From contig NZ_JACHXU010000007.1 of NCBI RefSeq assembly GCF_014192335.1, positions 62,001 to 126,000 on the forward strand: 64,000 nt of DNA, in the 5' to 3' direction. Made by a program: the position numbers and the translations under genes. Position 1 is the stretch's first letter. Each line of letters begins with the position of its first letter. Origin of the DNA: Aporhodopirellula rubra. GTDB lineage: Bacteria; Planctomycetota; Planctomycetia; Pirellulales; Pirellulaceae. This document shows positions 29,359-41,321 of the stretch, one piece after another. The notes beneath the pieces are model-generated. The model did not search any database and was not told where the DNA came from. It saw nothing but the letters and a program-made list of their open reading frames with translations.

Positions 29359-31404
29359 TTATTGCGTGGGCGAGCCTGCGCCGATCTTCTCCACCCACTC
29401 ATCGTCACACAACAAACGTCGCCGGGCGGGTTTCTCGATCTCCTCGGCGCTAACGTTGGATTTGCAGCGTTCTCCCCACTCCGGCGCATCCGCTGGTACT
29501 CGCCGGTCATTGGCAGCTGCACGAAGGATCTCAATGTGCTGGTCGCGAAACTTCGGATCGTGAAAGAGTTTTTCGAACAAACTTTCATGCTCTCGTTCGG
29601 AACGCATCGCTTTGATTTCGCAAATCCAATACTGATGGCGTGATAGGATAGGCTCGGGCAGTCGCTCCGATGAAATACGTAACAATCCGGCCTTGGCCAA
29701 TTTCCGGCCCACCAACCGGCTCCCCATCACAACCGCGATCGGAATGGATAGCGTCCATCCGATTAACAGCGGCGAAAACCAAATCAGCCAACCGGGTTCG
29801 ACCAGACCGAGTCCGACAGTCGTGGCCAATCCAAGCAACGTCAACGGCCACATCTGAGCGGTCGCTTCGGACCAAGACACACCTGTCTCCGAACGCTGCT
29901 GCGCGTTCCACTTCACATTGTGCCCGGTCAATACAGATAGCACGCACCGCGCGTGATAAACCGCGATCAACGGCGCGAGGATTGTTGAGAGCACAGTCTC
30001 AAACGCCGCACTGATAACGATCGGCAGGACGCCACCGAGTCTCCGCCGTTTTTCTCCGTTCAGGCACAACGTCGCAACGGAGAGAGCTTTCGGAAGCAGC
30101 AGCAACCCCATCGACCCGACAAACAGGGCGACACACATCGATCGTGTATCAACAGCGATCGACCCGTCACTTGATTGCGCGTTGATGATCGCAGCAACAA
30201 CTGTGGTCGTTAGGAACAGCAACCACAGCGGCGCCGCGACATACGAAAGGATTCCGCTGAGGAAATGCATCCGTGAAATCGGATGAATTCGTTCCGCCAA
30301 CATGACTTGCCAATGCTGCAAATTACCCTGACACCAGCGATGATCTCGTTTGACAAAATCCAACAACGTCGTCGGACACTCTTCGTAGCTGCCGCCGAGG
30401 TCATTTGCAAGTTTGACCTTCCATCCCGCTCGAACCATCAACGCCGCTTCTACGAAGTCGTGGCTCAGGATTTCACCACCGAGTGGAGGCAAACCGTTGA
30501 GAATCGGCAGGCTGCAATGCCGCATGAAGGCGCTCGTCCGAATGATCGCGTTATGCCCCCAGTAGTTTCCGCGGTCGCCCGCAAATCGGTCAAAACCTTC
30601 GGCGAACATCGGACCGTAAACCGCCGCCGCAAACTGTTGCAAGCGAGCGAAAAGGGATTGCCGCCCGACCGGCACCGGAGGCACCTGCAGGATCCCGAGC
30701 GCGTTATCCCCATCCATCCGACGCACCATTTCATCGATCGTTGATGCCGAAATGAGACTATCCGCATCGAGAACGATCATGTAGCGATATTGCACACCCC
30801 AATGCTCACAAAAATCCGCAACGTTGCCCGCCTTGCGAGCCGTGTTCTCCGAGCGATGGCGATAGTAGATGCCAATTTGGTCTGATGACGGATCGGCGTC
30901 ACCATTGACATCACCGAGCCGGTCGACGAGTTCCGACCAACACCATTCCTCCTCAAGCCAAATGTCCGAATCGGTTGAATCGCTGAGGACGAAGAAATCA
31001 TACTTCCCGATTCGCGGGGTCTCCAACAACTGCTCCCGCATCGCAGCGATCGCGGCAAAAACTCGCGTCGGGGACTCATTATAGATCGGCATCAGGATCG
31101 CGGTGCGATGGGACGACGCTTCGGGTAGTTTCTCCAGCGTCGGTGGCGAGACTCGCCGTGAACGCAATGTCCCCCAAAAGCCTTCCATTGCCAACGAGAA
31201 TGAAAACGCGATCCATCCGAAAAGAACGCAAAACAGAAGCATGCTCAATGCTTCAAAAAAGCGGATCGAATTATCGGCGATCATGATGACGTAAAACGTC
31301 ACGCAGCCGATCAACCAAATCAAAAGCGACGCCGCCAACACACGCGTTCGCACGAAAGTGATGTTGGGCGATGACTCATGAACGACAGGTTCAATGGCGG
31401 CCAT
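29359..31404 (-). CDS. opgH: Glucan glucosyltransferase H (osmoregulated periplasmic glucan synthase)
   Basis: Membrane GT2 enzyme that polymerises beta-1,2-linked glucose from UDP-glucose for osmoregulated periplasmic glucans. The start at 31404 gives 681 residues, shorter than the about 850 of E. coli OpgH because the long cytoplasmic N-terminal extension is absent. Two N-terminal helices (about 20-75) are followed by the GT domain: AILMPIYNE, VLSDSTDS, the DAD of VLDADS (213-215), and the acceptor motif RDHRWCQGN near 353-361. Several C-terminal helices form the rest of the channel. opgG lies 2.8 kb away on the other strand, with a glucanase gene between them. Confidence 0.92.
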   Translation of the reverse strand: MAAIEPVVHESSPNITFVRTRVLAASLLIWLIGCVTFYVIMIADNSIRFFEALSMLLFCVLFGWIAFSFSLAMEGFWGTLRSRRVSPPTLEKLPEASSHRTAILMPIYNESPTRVFAAIAAMREQLLETPRIGKYDFFVLSDSTDSDIWLEEEWCWSELVDRLGDVNGDADPSSDQIGIYYRHRSENTARKAGNVADFCEHWGVQYRYMIVLDADSLISASTIDEMVRRMDGDNALGILQVPPVPVGRQSLFARLQQFAAAVYGPMFAEGFDRFAGDRGNYWGHNAIIRTSAFMRHCSLPILNGLPPLGGEILSHDFVEAALMVRAGWKVKLANDLGGSYEECPTTLLDFVKRDHRWCQGNLQHWQVMLAERIHPISRMHFLSGILSYVAAPLWLLFLTTTVVAAIINAQSSDGSIAVDTRSMCVALFVGSMGLLLLPKALSVATLCLNGEKRRRLGGVLPIVISAAFETVLSTILAPLIAVYHARCVLSVLTGHNVKWNAQQRSETGVSWSEATAQMWPLTLLGLATTVGLGLVEPGWLIWFSPLLIGWTLSIPIAVVMGSRLVGRKLAKAGLLRISSERLPEPILSRHQYWICEIKAMRSEREHESLFEKLFHDPKFRDQHIEILRAAANDRRVPADAPEWGERCKSNVSAEEIEKPARRRLLCDDEWVEKIGAGSPTQ

Positions 31405-32587
31405 AGGAAAGCAGTTAATTGAAAGAAGAGAGAAAAGCGATCGCACACAACGGCGTGATGTCGATCAGCGCAGCGTGGCGGATGACAATAAGTGATGACG
31501 CTACTGATCGCGATGAACTGCCTACGACAGTCAAACGCGACGATCATTGACCGTGAGCACCCGGTGCGTCGGACGCAGCCTTGCAGCGACGTGGATCAAC
31601 ATGCAAGGCTGACGCCAACGCGGGTGTCTCGAGACGATGGAAAGACCGCGTCCGCCAACCGACTTGGCGGCAGCCGATCGGTGGAGCGGTGTATTCCACC
31701 GTCTGTGTTTCACACGGTCGTGGTGTTAGCGACCACGACGTGTCGAATCGTTTGCAACTCGAAACGATCCATGTTGCGGCACAAACAGGAACCGCATCAA
31801 TATTTGAGAGCTTTCAGCGATCGAACGAGACCACCAGTCCCATCGCAACGGGCCTGCCATCCGGATTGGCTCCGGATGATTCATCGAACGAAGCATGATT
31901 GGCGGCACGCTTCTCCTGCTCGTTGACATGGTTGATGGTGATACGCTCGATCCTTCGGCGTTTTTTACTTCGTTATTCGTGTCCATCACAAATACCCTTT
32001 GTGTAAGAAGAGGATCGGGACATTGAAAAGACCTTGGCGTCCCGGTAATCGGTTAAACCCGATGCTTTGTGAGTAACTTCAAAGCGTGTGCCAAAGATGT
32101 CGGCATGTATCGGCGGTTTCTTACAACCGAAATCAGCTCGTCTTAGTGAGCGACCTCGAGACGTTGGCTACTGTGGAAGTGGCCCACATTAGGGACGCCC
32201 CGAGGTTGATGTCAGCAACCATGACACCGGCAATCGTTAAAGTCACCGTTTTGCGCTTCCGCCACAGAAAAAGAATGCTATTTCAATAGTGGAGACTATC
32301 GGGCGAATCGAACGCTTCGGCGTGATCGCAAAATGACCAAGATGTCTTCCACTTTGTTAAGCGTTTGGCGGAAGATGCTCCAAAATTGAGCACTCAAATG
32401 TCGGCCAGGTGAACGGAACTCCTCTTCCCGTCGTATCAAACACGACTACCGGTGCCGATCCCCACTTTAAAGCCACAGCTAAGACGGATTGACGCCTCTT
32501 GTGCCGCTTCAGTATTCTCTGAAACCCCGGCGCAGGCCACTCGTCGCCCGCCGCCCCACCTGCCTTACGCCCACCTCGAAACTTGCT
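31405..32587. other. Long divergent intergenic region between opgH and the glucanase gene
   Basis: 1183 bases, apart from the candidate frameshifted gene at 31814-31986. The rest contains only short, poorly coding frames. It presumably holds the promoters of opgH and the glucanase. Some short fragments near 32.33-32.49 kb look weakly protein-like but are interrupted by stops; they may be decayed coding sequence. Confidence 0.4.
31814..31986 (-). CDS. Candidate small gene read through a -1 frameshift
   Basis: A plausible start (ATG at 31986, with AAAGGG 9-14 bases upstream) opens MDTNNEVKN. Codons GTA AAA AAC then form the slippery heptamer A-AAA-AAC. A -1 slip joins a 48-residue frame that looks genuinely coding (RRRIERITINHVNEQEKRA, FDESSGANPDGRPV, ending MGLVVSFDR) and stops at 31814, giving 57 residues. 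The unshifted frame runs on as an unlikely Ser/Met/Arg-rich peptide. Alternatives are a one-base indel in the A6 run (pseudogene or sequencing error) or chance. Function unknown. Confidence 0.4.
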
Positions 32588-33907
32588 ATGTCGCATCTTT
32601 CCAGTGCATTGACCCGTCGCGGATTCATTTCTAGCGTTGTGGCTGCGACCGCCCCTCTGATGTGCGGGACGAACCTCGGCGAGGCCTCTGTGGTGTCCAA
32701 CGACGATTTCCTGACCGATCTGCGCAGACGTTGCTACCAATACTTCATTGATGCGGCAGATCCGGTCACCGGATTGGTCAGCGACCGGGGCATGCGAAAC
32801 GGCGGTGGATTCAGTGAACACGCCAGTTCGGCGAGTTGTGGGTTCGCGTTGGCTTCCTATGCGATCGCGCCGAACTCGGGACTCGAGAACTTTGACAGTG
32901 CACGCGAACGCACCCGTTTGACGCTTCGTTCGCTCGTTGAAATCGCCCAACACCACAACGGTTTTGTTTATCACTTTATCGGGCGTAGTGACGGTGGCCG
33001 CAGGATGAATTGCGAGGCCTCCACTGTCGACACGGCTCTTATGTTGGCGGGTGTGATCTGCAGCGAAACGACCTTCGGAGACGACATCGAGATCAAAAGC
33101 CTTTGCCGGGAGTTGATTGGCCGAACGAACTGGCAATCGATGCTCGGTGACGGTAACTGCTTGCACATGGGCTGGTCACCCGAACACGGCTTGTTGCCGT
33201 ATCAATGGGACCGTTTCAGCGAATTGACCATTCTCGTGCTGATGGCCATCGGTGCCCCAAACCACGCCATTGACCCGTCCGCGTGGAACGCCTGGAAGCG
33301 CGACCGGATACTGAACTATCGCGGCGAAAGCTTCTTGAGCTATCCGCCGCTGTTCGTTCATCAATACCCGATGGCGTTCTTTGACTTTCGCGCCGTACGC
33401 AGCCCGAGTGGACGAAGCTACTGGAAGAACTCGGTCACGGCGCACCACGCACAAATCGAATTCCTCTCCCGGCTCGCCGAACGCTTCCCCGAAGAATTGG
33501 GACATTACAACGAACAGCTTTGGGGCATCACGAGCAGCGACTCGGTGTCGGGATATCGCGACTGGGGCGGCCCCTACGAAGACGACCGCTTCGAACCAGA
33601 TCGTGGCATCGACGGCACGGTCGTTCCGAGCGCTTCCGCCGGTGGGCTCGCCGTTGTTCCCGAACAGGCGATCGCGACGCTGCAGTACCAACGTAATCAG
33701 TTTGGCGATCAGATCTACGGACGATACGGTTTTGCCAACGCATTCAATCCGGCAACCGGATGGGTCAGCCGCGACGTGATCGGAATCGATACGGGCATCT
33801 CGTTGTTGATGGCTGAAAATTTACGCAGCGGTGGGGTATGGAGCACTTTCATGCAGCATCCGCTGCCACAGCGAGCATTCCGATTGGCTGGTTTCACACC
33901 AGTCTAG
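32588..33907 (+). CDS. Tat-exported GH144-like beta-1,2-glucanase (glucoamylase-like family)
   Basis: The ATG at 32588 opens a twin-arginine signal (LTRRGFISSVVAATAPLM) and 439 residues. The mature protein is an (alpha/alpha)6 barrel of the glucoamylase-like family: QYFIDAADPVTGLVSDRG, CEASTVDTALMLAG, LHMGWSPEHGLLPYQWDRFSE, WGITSSDSVSGYRDWGG, YGFANAFNP, WVSRDVIGIDTGISLLMAEN. GH144 members of this family hydrolyse beta-1,2-glucan, the backbone made by OpgH, which fits the location between opgH and opgG. Exact specificity is inference; beta-1,3 or other glucans are alternatives. Confidence 0.85.
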   Translation: MSHLSSALTRRGFISSVVAATAPLMCGTNLGEASVVSNDDFLTDLRRRCYQYFIDAADPVTGLVSDRGMRNGGGFSEHASSASCGFALASYAIAPNSGLENFDSARERTRLTLRSLVEIAQHHNGFVYHFIGRSDGGRRMNCEASTVDTALMLAGVICSETTFGDDIEIKSLCRELIGRTNWQSMLGDGNCLHMGWSPEHGLLPYQWDRFSELTILVLMAIGAPNHAIDPSAWNAWKRDRILNYRGESFLSYPPLFVHQYPMAFFDFRAVRSPSGRSYWKNSVTAHHAQIEFLSRLAERFPEELGHYNEQLWGITSSDSVSGYRDWGGPYEDDRFEPDRGIDGTVVPSASAGGLAVVPEQAIATLQYQRNQFGDQIYGRYGFANAFNPATGWVSRDVIGIDTGISLLMAENLRSGGVWSTFMQHPLPQRAFRLAGFTPV

Positions 33908-34187
33908 ACAAACATACGTTGGCGTCATCAAGTACCGGGTACGCGTCCAAACATGCGGCGAGGAGTCGGACGCCATCTCTACGGCTGGCATGCCACCCTC
34001 GCGACCGCATCACGAAAGGATGAACGCCGTTGAATCCGGCGGTGCCTCGGTGCTCGCAAAACGACCCGCGAGTCACGGGATTGGATGATTTTTGAGTGCG
34101 TTGGATAGCGTCATTTCGGCGCATGATTCGCACTCTCGGATGGACGAGGCTTCTCTTCTCGTACCATCCCTCAATCTCTTCTATCGC

Positions 34188-35900
34188 ATGATCACTCGCC
34201 ATCTATCCATCGTATTGGTTGTGCTCGCCGCTGTTCACGTGAATCAACCGATTCGAGCTGAACGCCCCGAATCGAACACGACCGAGCAAACTTCGCTCAC
34301 ATCAGTCAGACGTGCTAGTAAACCGGAGCTGCATGTATCTGACTTTGAAGATCTGAAAGCACTCGCTCGGCAAACCGCAGCGACGGCTTACGTGCCAGAA
34401 CCGCCGTTGATTCCCGTGCTGGCGCAGATGAACTACGAACAGTATCGCGAGATTCAATTCCGACACGACCAAGGCGTGTGGAATGACTCGAGGCATCCGT
34501 TCTGGCTGGAGTTTTTCCATCGCGGTTTTGTTCAACAAGACCGAGTTGATGTTTACCAAGTGAATCATGATTCACGGTCCGGTGCTGCGAAACAGATCCA
34601 ATACTATCCTGATCAGTTTCACTTTGGCGGAGCGGCGGCAGATCTTAACGTTCCGCCGTCGGTCGGTTACGCCGGGATCAAAATTGCCGGACGCTTTGAA
34701 CCCGAAGGCGACCCGCAGGAACTGTTGACGTTTCTCGGCTCCAGCTATTTTCGCTCGCGCACTGCCGATACGGTTTATGGGACTTCCGCGCGTGGTCTCG
34801 CGGTCAATATCGGAATGAACCAAGACGAGGAGTTTCCAGATTTTCGATCGTTCTGGGTTCAGGAACCGAGTCCGAGCGACCGCACGGTTCGAGTGCTCGC
34901 GTTGTTAGACAGTCCGACTCTCGCCGGTGCGTATGAATTTGCATTCGATCCTGGCGCGACAGTTTCGCAAATGGATGTGCGTGCCACTCTCTATTTTCGA
35001 GAAGCCCCCGACAAGCTTGCAATCGCACCTCTGACCAGCATGTGGATTTGGGGTGATGGGCTCCAAGGACCACCGCTCGACGAGCGTCCATCGGTTCACG
35101 ATTGCGATGGGCTGTTGATACACGAAGGCGACGATTGGACGTGGCGAGGACTCGCGAGGTTACCGTACCCGTCCGTCACCAGCACCGCCGTGAGGGACGT
35201 TCAAGGCTTTGGACTCCTGCAGCGGGACCGCGACTTCGAGCACTATCGTGACTCCAACGCTCGCTATCACGAACGACCGAGTGTTTGGGTACGCCCCAAT
35301 GATTCGTGGGGTCAAGGACGTATCGAACTGCTAGAGATCCCCGGGGCTCACGAGGGGATCGACAACATCGGCGCGTACTTCGTCAGCGACACGCCCGTCG
35401 ATGGGAACCACCCCATGGAACTGAACTACACCGTGTTTTTCTTTTCCGACGAAGCCGCGTTACGTTCGGCCGTTATCCCCATCGACGAGTCGGGATCCCA
35501 ATTGCTGACTTGCCGAGCGTTTGATGTTAAGCGTAACGATGAACGGATCATGCTGGAGTTGGAATTCGGGCAGCCTGATCCTGACGACGGGGACTCGATC
35601 GCGAGCGTAGACGATTTCACCGAAGCAGTCGACGCGCACGGCATTACCGACCACACGCCCGGCTTTGTCGATGCTGCAGCTCAGTTGATTCGAGGCAAGC
35701 TGATCGATCAATCCGTTGAGCGAACCGCGACTGGATATTCGGTGATGATCGAAATGGAGGCGACCGAGGACGCGGCGATCGAAATTGAACTAACGCTCAA
35801 AGACGACAAGGGGAACCGGATGAGCGAAACGTTTCGATACCTTTGTCCCCACGAGACGCCAACTTTCACTTACCCGGCCGTTTATACGCGACAAGAGTAA
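34188..35900 (+). CDS. opgG: Periplasmic glucan biosynthesis protein G
   Basis: The ATG at 34188 is preferred over a TTG at 34092 because it opens a signal peptide (RHLSIVLVVLAAVHV, cleavage near IRAERP). The 570-residue protein matches MdoG/OpgG: LKALARQTAATAY, MNYEQYREIQFR, FWLEFFHRGF, and the conserved LTSMWIWGDG ... VHDCDGLLI ... WTWRGL core near residue 285-320, then the C-terminal immunoglobulin-like domain. In E. coli OpgG is needed to make periplasmic glucans, and relatives (GH186) cleave beta-1,2-glucan. It precedes a kinase gene by 14 bases. Confidence 0.92.
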   Translation: MITRHLSIVLVVLAAVHVNQPIRAERPESNTTEQTSLTSVRRASKPELHVSDFEDLKALARQTAATAYVPEPPLIPVLAQMNYEQYREIQFRHDQGVWNDSRHPFWLEFFHRGFVQQDRVDVYQVNHDSRSGAAKQIQYYPDQFHFGGAAADLNVPPSVGYAGIKIAGRFEPEGDPQELLTFLGSSYFRSRTADTVYGTSARGLAVNIGMNQDEEFPDFRSFWVQEPSPSDRTVRVLALLDSPTLAGAYEFAFDPGATVSQMDVRATLYFREAPDKLAIAPLTSMWIWGDGLQGPPLDERPSVHDCDGLLIHEGDDWTWRGLARLPYPSVTSTAVRDVQGFGLLQRDRDFEHYRDSNARYHERPSVWVRPNDSWGQGRIELLEIPGAHEGIDNIGAYFVSDTPVDGNHPMELNYTVFFFSDEAALRSAVIPIDESGSQLLTCRAFDVKRNDERIMLELEFGQPDPDDGDSIASVDDFTEAVDAHGITDHTPGFVDAAAQLIRGKLIDQSVERTATGYSVMIEMEATEDAAIEIELTLKDDKGNRMSETFRYLCPHETPTFTYPAVYTRQE

Positions 35901-35914
35901 GCTAGAATCGGGGG

Positions 35915-37732
35915 ATGAAAGACGCCTCCGATCCCAACCGCCAATCATCAAGTGTCAAAGACGCGGATTGCGATCCGGCGGTTGAGGAAACGTTGTGCGA
36001 TCCCGTGCCGCTGCCATCAGACGCGACACTCGAATCCGTTTTGGCGTATTTCATCGAGCGTCACGAAAACGGAACACCGGTTCGGCTCGACCAGATCGCG
36101 GATCGATATCCACAATACTCCGAACCTCTGCGAAGCTTCTTTGCAAATCAACAGTGGCTCGCCCCGGGGACCCAGCCAGCCTCAATTTCGCTGATTGGTG
36201 AATTGCTCGATGATTTCCTGCTCAAACGCGAGATCGCGCGTGGGGGAATGGGAACGGTCTATGAAGCAACACAGCAGAGCCTCCGGCGGGATGTTGCGGT
36301 GAAACTGATCAGCGACGGACTACTCGCCGACGACGAACTCAAGATGCGGTTCCGGATCGAAGCGGAGGCCGCCGCGACGCTCTCTCATCCGAACATCCTT
36401 CCGATCCACGCGGTCGGATGCTGGCGCGGGATGGATTACTTCGTCATGCCGTTGGTCAGCGGCCGATCCTTGCAGGCTCAGGTCAACGAGCGGAACGCAC
36501 AACTCGAGGCCAATCCGGGTAATCCGCGATTGTCAGGTTGCGAAACGAGTGAACGCGAAGTGGTTCGGGGATCGATCGAAACGGCGAGAGACATCGCCCG
36601 CGCGGTCGCGTACGCACATCGTCGTGGAATCATCCATCGCGATTTGAAACCGGACAACGTTCTCATCGACGACGAGGGTCGTCCCAAAATCGTGGATTTC
36701 GGATTGGCGAAATGGCACCGCGACGAACCGGGGGTCACACTTGACGGGCAAATCCTCGGCACACCGCATTACATGAGCCCCGAACAGGCTCGAGGTGAAT
36801 CGGATGTCACGGCGGCAACGGATATCTATTCCATCGGCGGAATCTTGTTCGCGCTCTTAACAGGCCGTCCTCCTCATCATGGCGAGTCCACCGCCGAAGT
36901 TCTCGCGAGCGTGCTCAGCGACGACGCCCCTTCGTTGCGGATGACCTGGCCGGGAGGGATGCCGCGGCTCTCCGAATTGACCGACCTGGAACACGTACTC
37001 GATCGCGCGATGTCGCCTCACAGAGCCGACCGATATCGATGGGCGGATGATTTTGCCGACGACTTAGATCGAATTCTCGTCGGCGAACCGCCCATGGCGG
37101 GGAAAGACGGCATCGTGTCGAAAGTCACACGGGAACTCAGTCGAGACCAACACCACGCCACGTTCGCCAATTGGGGACGAGCGTTGATGCGAATCGGCGT
37201 CGTCGTCTTGGTAGCCCACGTGTCGATGTTCGTGATCCAAGAATCCATGACTCCGGACGTCCGCGAGTCCATGCGTGTGTCTGCGTTGAGCAGCAGTTCG
37301 TTGCTCGGATACTTCGTACCTCGGTTGCTAATGCTGGCAGGAATCGCCTGGACGATTCATCGGGCGCGTGACGGTGAGTGGATGCCGCGTGGCATTGCCG
37401 AGCGGCCGGTGTGGTCGATCTGGCTCGGCTATCTGGCCACATTGACAATGGTCAACCTCCTGTGGGCATGGGGCTATTTTGATCATTCCGATGTGATGGT
37501 CCTGGCCGGAGTCATCAGTGGGTTTGGCTTCCTCGCGATGGCCGGACACTTATGGGGCGGAAACGCTATTTCGGGGCTAATATTCTTTGCGATCGCGGGC
37601 GGCAGTGCCGTGTGGCCGCGGTTCAGTCCCTTGCTGTTAGGGGCGGGTTGGATGATCGCGATGTGGGTGCTCGGCACTCGCTACGCGGCACCGCGAGTGG
37701 GCTCCGATTCGCGGGTACAAAACGGCGAGTGA
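35915..37732 (+). CDS. Ser/Thr protein kinase with six-helix membrane domain
   Basis: 605 residues, starting 14 bases after opgG, so probably co-transcribed. An N-terminal region (1-95) resembles the small adaptor part often present in planctomycete kinases (IADRYPQYSEPLRSF). The kinase domain (98-390) is intact: REIARGGMGTVY, VAVK (K130), HRDLKPDN (241-248), DFG (261-263), GTPHYMSPEQ, with an insertion of about 30 residues after the fifth strand. About six transmembrane helices follow (425-595) with no extracytoplasmic sensor domain. Linkage to the glucan genes suggests envelope or osmotic sensing; that is inference. Confidence 0.9.
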   Translation: MKDASDPNRQSSSVKDADCDPAVEETLCDPVPLPSDATLESVLAYFIERHENGTPVRLDQIADRYPQYSEPLRSFFANQQWLAPGTQPASISLIGELLDDFLLKREIARGGMGTVYEATQQSLRRDVAVKLISDGLLADDELKMRFRIEAEAAATLSHPNILPIHAVGCWRGMDYFVMPLVSGRSLQAQVNERNAQLEANPGNPRLSGCETSEREVVRGSIETARDIARAVAYAHRRGIIHRDLKPDNVLIDDEGRPKIVDFGLAKWHRDEPGVTLDGQILGTPHYMSPEQARGESDVTAATDIYSIGGILFALLTGRPPHHGESTAEVLASVLSDDAPSLRMTWPGGMPRLSELTDLEHVLDRAMSPHRADRYRWADDFADDLDRILVGEPPMAGKDGIVSKVTRELSRDQHHATFANWGRALMRIGVVVLVAHVSMFVIQESMTPDVRESMRVSALSSSSLLGYFVPRLLMLAGIAWTIHRARDGEWMPRGIAERPVWSIWLGYLATLTMVNLLWAWGYFDHSDVMVLAGVISGFGFLAMAGHLWGGNAISGLIFFAIAGGSAVWPRFSPLLLGAGWMIAMWVLGTRYAAPRVGSDSRVQNGE

Positions 37733-37886
37733 ATCGTCGCGGTCCGCACAATCGCTACGGACGACCTGATCGAACAGGTTTCTCTGATACAAACGCACTG
37801 CGCGGTTTGCCAATCGAGGGTGTGTCACAAAACCCGTCGTACATTTGCGTGAGTCGATTTAGACATCTCGCAAAGGACAGCACTCA

Positions 37887-39206
<1,320 letters not shown>

Positions 39207-39309
39207 CGAGTACCGGAGGCGTCGACGGAGGTTGGACTTGATCCGGCCTCACGTCGTCATCCCTCGTTTATCTGACCTCACACCCTCGTCCTCAGACCTT
39301 AGTTCTCAC

Positions 39310-40275
39310 ATGTCCTCGCTCATAATCATTGCTGCCGTTGGAGTTTTTGTTGCCGCGATGGTGGCGTTCACCGCTTCCGTGTTGATGCCGTCCGAAGAGA
39401 CGACTGCAACCGAAGATCGACTCGCAGCGTTGGCAACCAACAACCGAGGCGGTACGACCGAGAAAAAGCAGTCGCTGTTGTTAGTCGACGACATGGATAA
39501 GGCAGCATCCCTGCTCGAACGGATCATGAATCATGTTCCGGCCGTTCACAAATACATCGAACAGGCCGACATGAAGATCACTATGGTCCAATTCATGGGG
39601 ATGTGCGGTGCGTGTTTCCTCGCCGGCGTCGTCATTTGCGTGGTTTCGCCCGTGCCGGTTCTCCTGGGACCGATTCTCGGTTTGGTGATGTCGACGCTGC
39701 CGCTCTGCGTCGTGCTGTTTAAACGCAAAAAACGACTAGCGAAATTCGGGCAACAAATCCCGGAAGCACTCGAACTGCTCGGCCGCTCGCTGCGTGCGGG
39801 ACACTCGTTGCAAGCCGGTTTCGGGCTCGTCGGCGAAGAGATGGACGCTCCTCTCGCAACCGAGTTCAAACGCTGCTACGAAGAACAAAAGTTTGGCATC
39901 CCGTTGGACGAATCGATCGAAGACATGGCAGAGCGGATTCCCAACATGGACATCCGGTTCTTTGCCACCGCAGTGATCCTGCAACGGCAAACAGGCGGTG
40001 ACTTGAGCGAGATCCTCGACAAGATCGGACACCTCGTCCGGGAGCGATTGCAAATCCTTGGAACGATCCAGGCACTCACCGGGGAAGGCCGAATGAGCGG
40101 TGCGGTGCTGTTGGCGTTACCACCTGTGCTGTTCCTCACGATGTTACGACTCAACTACGACTACATCATGATGCTGTTCACCGATGACCTCGGGCGATAC
40201 GCACTCGGTGCCGCGATCGTGTCTCAAATCATCGGTGCATTGGTGATCAAAAAGATTATCACGATCAAGGTTTAG
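39310..40275 (+). CDS. tadB: Tad platform protein TadB
   Basis: Inner-membrane platform protein. The ATG at 39310 is preferred over a TTG at 39232, as it starts directly in a transmembrane helix (SSLIIIAAVGVFVAAMVAF). 321 residues with helices near the N-terminus, about 90-130 and 285-320, and the T2SF domain (GRSLRAGHSLQAGFGLV, RQTGGDLSEILDKIGHLVRER). The leader upstream is pyrimidine-rich and resembles that of korB. Confidence 0.92.
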   Translation: MSSLIIIAAVGVFVAAMVAFTASVLMPSEETTATEDRLAALATNNRGGTTEKKQSLLLVDDMDKAASLLERIMNHVPAVHKYIEQADMKITMVQFMGMCGACFLAGVVICVVSPVPVLLGPILGLVMSTLPLCVVLFKRKKRLAKFGQQIPEALELLGRSLRAGHSLQAGFGLVGEEMDAPLATEFKRCYEEQKFGIPLDESIEDMAERIPNMDIRFFATAVILQRQTGGDLSEILDKIGHLVRERLQILGTIQALTGEGRMSGAVLLALPPVLFLTMLRLNYDYIMMLFTDDLGRYALGAAIVSQIIGALVIKKIITIKV

Positions 40276-40331
40276 ATCGAACCTTCCGCACGGTCCCACT
40301 CACTTCTTTCATTCAATACATCGTCACTCCC

Positions 40332-41321
40332 ATGTTTACTTTCCTCGCTGAAAACGCCGCTCCGGGCTTCATCAACCCGATGCTTCTGACCACCGTCGCG
40401 ATCTTCTTGGGCGTCGCTTCGATCTCGTGGTTGGTCATCAACAAAATCAACGGTTCGGATCAAGAACCCGCCGAGTCGCGACTCGACCGGATGAAGCAAG
40501 CCAAACGTGGCATCCGAAATATCGAAGCCGACGAAAAAGCACGTAGCAAGAATGAAGCGTTGACCGCAGCCCTCGAAAAGGCCGCCAATCCGATCGCGAA
40601 TTCGGTCTCCGGCAACGAAGAAGAAATGGGCAAGCTGCGAGAGAAACTCGTCAACGCGGGCTTCCGGCGTGAGAGTTCTCCCATCGTTTTCAAGATGATC
40701 CAGCTCGTCTGCACCGGTGTCGGCTTGTTTTTCGGCGGTGTGCTGGGGATGCTCGTCGACGGAATGACCCAAGGTCTCTTGATCAAACTCTTTGGAGGAA
40801 TGATTCTCGGCTTCGGCATTCCTCAATTAGCCCTCGGATTCCTTGCAAGCAAACGCAAAGAATCGATTTTCCTCGGCCTGCCCGACGCTCTCGACTTGAT
40901 GGTCGTCTGCGTGGAAGCCGGTTTGGGAATGGACCAAGCGTTGCGTAAGGTCGCCGAAGAGATGGGCAAAAGCCACAAAAACATCGGTGAAGAATTCAAC
41001 ATCGCCAACTCGCAATTGCAATTCGGCCGACCGCGAAGCGAAGTGCTGCAAGCGCTTGGATACCGCAGCGGCGTGGACGATTTGAAGCAACTCGCGTCGA
41101 TCCTGATTCAGGCCGACAAGTTCGGCTCGAGCGTCGCGACGGCACTGCGCGTGCAAAGTGAATCGATGCGAACCAAACGTCGTCAAATCGCGGAAGAGAA
41201 AGCAGCCAAGACGGCCGTGAAGATGATTTTCCCGCTCGTTCTGTTCATCTTCCCAGGTATCTTCGTGGTGCTCGTCGGACCTGCCGCGATCAACATGTAC
41301 CGGCAAATGCTCGCCAAATAA
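40332..41321 (+). CDS. tadC: Tad platform protein TadC
   Basis: Partner of TadB in the pilus platform. 329 residues: N-terminal helix (14-38), polar segment, helices about 118-165, T2SF domain (LPDALDLMVVCVEAGLGMDQAL, LIQADKFGSSVATALRVQSESMR) and a C-terminal helix (MIFPLVLFIFPGIFVVLVGP). It follows tadB by 56 bases. Confidence 0.93.
   Translation: MFTFLAENAAPGFINPMLLTTVAIFLGVASISWLVINKINGSDQEPAESRLDRMKQAKRGIRNIEADEKARSKNEALTAALEKAANPIANSVSGNEEEMGKLREKLVNAGFRRESSPIVFKMIQLVCTGVGLFFGGVLGMLVDGMTQGLLIKLFGGMILGFGIPQLALGFLASKRKESIFLGLPDALDLMVVCVEAGLGMDQALRKVAEEMGKSHKNIGEEFNIANSQLQFGRPRSEVLQALGYRSGVDDLKQLASILIQADKFGSSVATALRVQSESMRTKRRQIAEEKAAKTAVKMIFPLVLFIFPGIFVVLVGPAAINMYRQMLAK

Follow-up and report, generated by a model that had tools for sequence, protein, structure and literature searches.

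Among the nearest counterparts of the locus reported here are the opgGH (mdoGH) genes for osmoregulated periplasmic glucan (OPG) of Escherichia coli and the beta-1,2-glucanases of clan GH-S. The GH144 enzyme XcSGL (XCC2207; structure 8xul, of the mutant E239Q) is reported to hydrolyse beta-1,2-glucan and to be inactive on the other polysaccharides examined alongside it; the same report covers CpSGL (5gzk, GH144) and PgSGL3 (8xuk, GH194), and its clan figure gives no solved structure for GH193 (PMC12102758). For GH186, D388, D300 and R359 have been described as the catalytic residues of EcOpgD, and T386 as a residue close to the catalytic water (PMC10514313). The E. coli OpgH peptide 83-101 (EAKRSSMFPDPWRTNPVGR) was described as inhibiting division by itself and co-localising with FtsZ, and its removal left the effect of the OpgH N-terminus (OpgH-N) not abolished (PMC3723540); the OpgH of Caulobacter is described as having no such N-terminal extension (PMC11389396). 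Here, a 64,000-nucleotide stretch of contig NZ_JACHXU010000007.1 of Aporhodopirellula rubra (GCF_014192335.1), referred to as the window, was analyzed with respect to the span 29359-37732, which contains opgH, a GH144-type glucanase gene, opgG, a kinase gene and a small gene for which the name opgX was coined. The window's genome is G000 (contig 7) in the genome set used below. The span probably holds a planctomycete OPG unit, in which synthesis by OpgH and processing by OpgG would be combined with turnover by a dedicated GH144 enzyme and with an action of OpgX on OpgH, the kinase being incidental. No paper joining Rhodopirellula and periplasmic glucan was found in the open-access literature searched, an earlier description elsewhere being possible, and the open-access papers found to mention both OPGs and planctomycetes were, by title, microbial-community or Yersinia studies.

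Probable genes for glucan synthesis, processing and turnover

The opgH gene (29359-31404, minus strand) encodes an OPG glucosyltransferase of the GT2 type. Its open reading frame (ORF, 29359-31446) is open to GTG 31446, and ATG 31404 was taken as the likely start because it fits the 681-residue MdoH of Rhodopirellula sp. SWK7 (P0015), to which the window OpgH is 98% identical. The protein passed the equivalog cut-offs of two NCBIfam models (NF003958, 730.7 bits versus 419; NF003962, 572.9 versus 328), and seven further MdoH models matched it with scores under their cut-offs.

The glucanase gene (32588-33907, plus strand) encodes a GH144-type endo-beta-1,2-glucanase; its ORF (32489-33907) opens with TTG 32489, and the likely Met is at 32588. 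The product was matched by PF10091 with 232 bits (cut-off 27). When solved structures were searched with phmmer, XcSGL was the best relative (E 2.9e-51, 177.8 bits), followed among others by CpSGL (E 1.2e-26, 96.6 bits), whereas PgSGL3 gave just E 0.047 (15.5 bits); the GH192, GH162 and GH189 structures (8XUJ, 6IMU and 8WY1) did not appear among the nine structures matched at E 1 or below. GH194 and the other clan families were ruled out by these match scores. The sequence comparison thus supports a GH144-like enzyme of clan GH-S, nearer to the characterised GH144 proteins than to those of GH162, GH189, GH192 or GH194, and bears out the GH144-like assignment of the first-pass annotation.

The clan catalytic positions E245, F289, Y356 and D181 (counted from TTG 32489) are kept in the glucanase. 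The general acid E245 stands opposite the Q of the 8xul chain, that is, at the E239Q mutant position, and F289 and D181 align in the same register with XcSGL F286 and with the base position, CpSGL E142. Near the clan tyrosine the 8xul alignment is shifted, setting E369 opposite XcSGL Y367, and Y356 matches this tyrosine in the alignments with 4gl3 and 3eu8. A twin-arginine-like motif (ALTRRGFISS, a motif match only) follows Met 32588 and would act as the export signal; relatives have TRRRFLS or KRRTFLA. The motif was present in 10 of the 12 loci printed out of 22, the window included, and the other two were apparently read in the wrong frame.

The opgG gene (34188-35900, plus strand), within an ORF of 34092-35900, encodes a GH186/MdoG periplasmic glucan protein with a hydrophobic signal-like start at the likely Met 34188. 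It was matched by PF04349 with 438 bits (cut-off 25, E 5.5e-131), and E. coli OpgG (1txk) was its best solved match (E 4.9e-89). In P0003 numbering, D424 (acid), D337 (base) and R395 match EcOpgD D388, D300 and R359, and the OpgG/GH186 identity is supported together with its catalytic residues. The position of EcOpgD T386 is taken by G422 and, given this residue, the activity of the window OpgG may differ from that of EcOpgD.

The arrangement was compared across 60 genomes (the window's own and 59 relatives), among which GH144 was found in 21, opgG in 20 and opgH in 20. The three genes stand together in divergent order in 15 of the 20 opgH-bearing genomes. Genome G010 has opgH at one site and GH144-opgG at another, and in G030, G042, G048 and G059 opgG and opgH are co-directional with no GH144 between them. 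Throughout the window's family, a GH144 orthologue (identity at least 56%) accompanies opgH in 22 of 22 genomes, 17 of them from the 60-genome set and five from a 392-genome phylum sample. The 20 scored family members without opgH were all without the GH144 orthologue; G331 and G410, also without opgH, were left out of this search. In another family, f53, four genomes (G254, G287, G351 and G404) have a distant GH144-type gene, 21 to 26% identical to the window enzyme, adjoining opgH on the contig, and the adjacency was seen again in three of these loci (L130, L131 and L132). On a contig of a Pirellulaceae metagenome-assembled genome (L142), GH144 is divergent from an opgX-like ORF and opgH. 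Since opgH, GH144 and opgG occur together in 15 of 20 genomes and co-occurrence within the family is strict, the link of the glucanase to glucan synthesis holds.

The small gene opgX and its fusions with opgH

The first-pass annotation had placed opgH on the minus strand, facing a GH144-type gene, opgG and a kinase gene on the plus strand. These four genes were found as named and oriented, and the list was incomplete, the conserved opgX (31726-31986, minus strand) having been overlooked within the span. This ORF of 86 amino acids without a hydrophobic segment lies in the gap between opgH and the GH144 gene, its end being 321 bases short of the opgH ATG. The ratio of nonsynonymous to synonymous substitution rates (dN/dS) was 0.10-0.23 over eight pairs (0.12 and 0.22 against the two nearest genomes), and opgX is under purifying selection. 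As a frame control, the ratio of nonsynonymous to synonymous differences per site (pN/pS) was 0.13-0.33 in the coding frame of opgX versus 0.56-1.25 in the rest of the gap in all frames. One complementary-strand frame within the ORF was also low (0.23-0.44), as is expected when third positions vary.

A same-strand ORF upstream of opgH was assigned to opgX in all 20 opgH genomes of the 60-genome set. It is 149-155 residues long and overlaps the opgH ATG by 11 bases in G002, G003, G004, G006, G009 and G011; an overlap of 23 bases in G023 brings the overlapping genomes to seven. In the four genomes with co-directional opgG and opgH, it sits between the two. Members of the family are helical in their N-terminal part and carry, in the C-terminal part, a motif in which a P stands seven residues ahead of an M or L, a spacing present in 27 of 28 anchored segments (G018 was left out, and L120 was mis-anchored). 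Pfam and NCBIfam returned nothing for opgX below E 0.03, and a database search with a 153-residue form yielded five relatives, of which the three that carry an organism name are from Rhodopirellula and annotated as hypothetical protein. With a profile of 13 long forms, five of the seven short forms were recovered below E 1e-3 (the window form at E 3.2e-8); the remaining two, at E 0.0036 and 0.15, did not exceed the top-scoring shuffle (13.4 bits).

Of 26 further planctomycete opgH loci, 10 contained opgX at the first pass (four fused, six upstream) and 14 after profile iteration. Iteration alone brought in L209, L120, L126 and L121, the best shuffle of the last round reaching 9.4 bits. L135 and L136, with no opgH frame by the search pattern, were left out of the 26. 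An 80-locus set contributed four loci to this count and all 80 to the fusion scan described below; L125 and L137 are the same in sequence. What looked like an opgG-opgX fusion in L126 (G413) was discarded, its two parts being in different frames.

The fusion scan covered 104 further loci together with two seed loci, 10,441 ORFs in all, and separate upstream copies of opgX were also found in it. The opgX profile hit the N-terminus of the 866-residue OpgH P0108, a database protein whose contig is 5.5 kb long, with E 3e-9 (33 bits versus 13 for the best of 1000 shuffles). Fused OpgH frames of 882 residues were found in G262, G384, G390 and G437 (E 2.5e-13 to 4.2e-12), which belong to one genus in the same family as the window. 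When further fused OpgHs were sought with the P0108 N-terminus, P0108 itself was the only one among 7989 scored candidates. The AlphaFold model of P0108 has helices at 28-103 with a predicted local distance difference test score of about 70-80; the motif region (152-200) is mostly below 50, and the model gave no sign of motif docking. This is consistent with the division of the family into a helical part and a motif part. Because the profile finds opgX either fused to OpgH or upstream of opgH, opgX is, as judged from sequence, a separately encoded OpgH N-terminal segment.

Flanking features and alternative readings

The intergenic region that separates the divergent opgX and glucanase genes (31987-32587) is non-coding by pN/pS. 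Alignment with the two nearest genomes revealed two blocks (32076-32096 and 32321-32392) strongly conserved across G000, G008 and G012, and the region is possibly a shared promoter region or contains regulatory sites of the divergent genes. No Rfam match and no tRNA were found, and opgB, opgC and opgD were not identified within the span 29359-37732.

A Ser/Thr kinase gene (35915-37732, plus strand; PF00069, 130 bits) follows opgG at the 14-base spacing noted in the first-pass annotation (35900 to 35915), and a simple hydropathy scan gave three strong hydrophobic segments in the C-terminal part of its product. That annotation counted the kinase as a member of the set, which would signal or regulate glucan status. 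The short gap, recurring with the same gene order in G008 and G012, would fit such a role, as would the finding that each of the 16 locus-bearing genomes has such a kinase, set apart by score (E 2.7e-88 or better against 5e-71 for the next best), and that G030 has none; a search with the C-terminal part alone found 15 of 40 genomes, the same ones except G025, which is outside the 40. However, the orthologue adjoins opgG in G000, G008 and G012 only (3 of 16 genomes) and lies elsewhere in the other 13. In G001 and G010 (loci L102 and L103), the membrane kinase is followed by cpaF-tadB-tadC and no glucan gene is close by; in ten further genomes neither the glucan nor the tad set was found in its surroundings (the G007 stretch being cut by a contig end); and in G025, whose kinase surroundings were left out of the neighbourhood comparison, it is on another contig. 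In the window, cpaF and two tad-type genes lie 3' of the kinase (plus-strand stretch 35915-41321). Conservation of the neighbourhood in relatives was upheld for opgH, glucanase and opgG, and the kinase was rejected as a member of the unit on synteny; a regulatory kinase within the set appears very improbable to us. By gene order, the kinase is best seen as a chance neighbour, perhaps one that goes with the tad genes in some members of the genus.

In the pathway that we infer for the unit, OpgH would make beta-1,2-glucan and move it out, and OpgG would process it in the periplasm. The GH144 enzyme would be an endo-beta-1,2-glucanase dedicated to the glucan of the cell itself, which it would trim or turn over in the periplasm. 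OpgX would be cytoplasmic and most likely bind OpgH, controlling or stabilising it; its action on OpgH from the cytoplasm is suggested because of the opgX-OpgH fusions. The comparisons establish the identities of the genes, their conservation and co-occurrence, the coding status of opgX and its fusions with OpgH; the substrate, the effect of the GH144 enzyme on the glucan and the binding of OpgX to OpgH are deduced from these. Several points weigh against this pathway. GH144 lies away from opgH in seven of the 22 family genomes (G010, G030, G262, G384, G390, G396 and G437), the co-occurrence counted by genus (6 versus 20, Fisher p 4.3e-6) is uncorrected for phylogeny, and GH144 went unmatched in 12 of the 19 opgH genomes outside the family. 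Three relatives (G050, G054 and G058) carry a GH144-like gene and no opgH. The 20 ORFs that defined the opgX family were assigned by eye, the most divergent members resting on position and motif; the window's clade keeps the motif part only, so that the window opgX has no N-terminal helical part, and it stands 321 bases off opgH. Even after iteration, opgX was undetected in 12 of the 26 further planctomycete loci, and alphaproteobacterial and verrucomicrobial loci gave no opgX profile match at E below 0.05. The literature consulted contained no biochemical study of a planctomycete OPG gene.

Alternatively, the GH144 enzyme might forage on the beta-1,2-glucan of other bacteria, its place beside opgG reflecting convenience or shared regulation. 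The GH144 enzymes studied are described as degrading (PMC12102758, PMC11842490), and the three relatives with a GH144-like gene and no opgH would agree with foraging, but the family co-occurrence with opgH is strict even where the genes are not adjacent, adjacency to opgH recurs in a distant family, and the span 29359-37732 showed no recognisable gene for uptake or for the processing of oligosaccharides. Foraging is accordingly considered unlikely. It is still less probable that the GH144 or the OpgG protein is a transglycosylase, which would cyclise or cap the glucan with no hydrolysis. An enzyme of this kind related to GH186 is reportedly known from Xanthomonas as XccOpgD. In the title of its description it is called an anomer-inverting transglycosylase (PMC11228985), and G422 of the window OpgG, at the T386 position, would be compatible with such an activity; however, XcSGL, the closest GH144 relative, hydrolyses beta-1,2-glucan (PMC12102758). 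As for OpgX, a different account would make it an independent small protein that was not split off from OpgH but was fused to it secondarily in one genus. It could, for example, be an adaptor bringing to OpgH a partner such as acyl carrier protein, which is an OPG factor in E. coli. In the planctomycete loci seen, separate copies greatly outnumber fused ones, and the segment was not detected in the proteobacterial and verrucomicrobial loci, where OpgH begins a little ahead of the first membrane helix. The OpgHs of beta- and gammaproteobacteria nevertheless have, at the N-terminus, a cytoplasmic stretch that shares the P-to-M spacing of opgX, a likeness without firm statistical support, and an independent origin of OpgX is regarded as conceivable and rather doubtful.

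Comparison with known glucan systems

The window glucanase shares its sequence family and catalytic positions with XcSGL. It differs in being tied to an OPG synthesis locus, and its activity is predicted. The locus would thus offer a testable set for one linkage, consisting of a synthase, a GH186 protein and a dedicated GH144 enzyme.

On the plasmids p74 of Leptospira biflexa and pE30-1 of L. kobayashii, an unnamed small gene with an SMVP stretch lies between an MdoG-family gene and opgH. Unlike opgX, the Leptospira small gene has a hydrophobic C-terminus and no P-to-M spacing; profile and profile-profile comparisons with opgX were not significant, the N-terminus being the best segment. This gene (1989-2378 in L219, 1980-2348 in L223) is possibly another separate OpgH N-terminal piece.

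Like opgX, E. coli OpgH-N (residues 1-138) is a segment before the first membrane helix with a P seven residues before an M. This spacing occurs in the E. coli 83-101 stretch and also in Cupriavidus and Mitsuaria. The score of E. coli OpgH 1-138 was reached by 13 of 2000 shuffles with the iterated profile, by 76 of 2000 with the motif profile and by 309 of 2000 with the first profile, and the Cupriavidus and Mitsuaria OpgH-N and the Leptospira gene were not significant with any of the three. When opgX was compared with E. coli OpgH-N by hhalign, motif fell on motif (Prob 0.2%, E 0.28). A resemblance of opgX to the division-inhibiting stretch of E. coli OpgH, without firm statistical support, was therefore kept as a lead only. 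E. coli OpgH-N is part of OpgH, whereas opgX is a separate gene in most of the planctomycete loci seen, and FtsZ was found in none of the 60 planctomycete genomes versus 13 of 14 control genomes. We tentatively entertain, as a minority view, that OpgX and the N-terminus through which E. coli OpgH acts on FtsZ are one and the same segment, working in trans here in bacteria without FtsZ. If this were true, the original job of the segment would be the control of OpgH and glucan synthesis, and division control in E. coli would be a later addition. With opgX, the OpgH N-terminal segment would be available as its own protein where FtsZ was not found; since it is separate in genomes without detected FtsZ, its effect on glucan synthesis could be studied apart from FtsZ-based division.

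Compared with opgGH of E. coli, the OpgG and OpgH of the window are homologues of the same families, and OpgG has the same catalytic residues. In the window, however, opgG and opgH belong to two divergent units and the GH144 gene lies between them, and the OpgH N-terminal segment would be encoded by a gene of its own.

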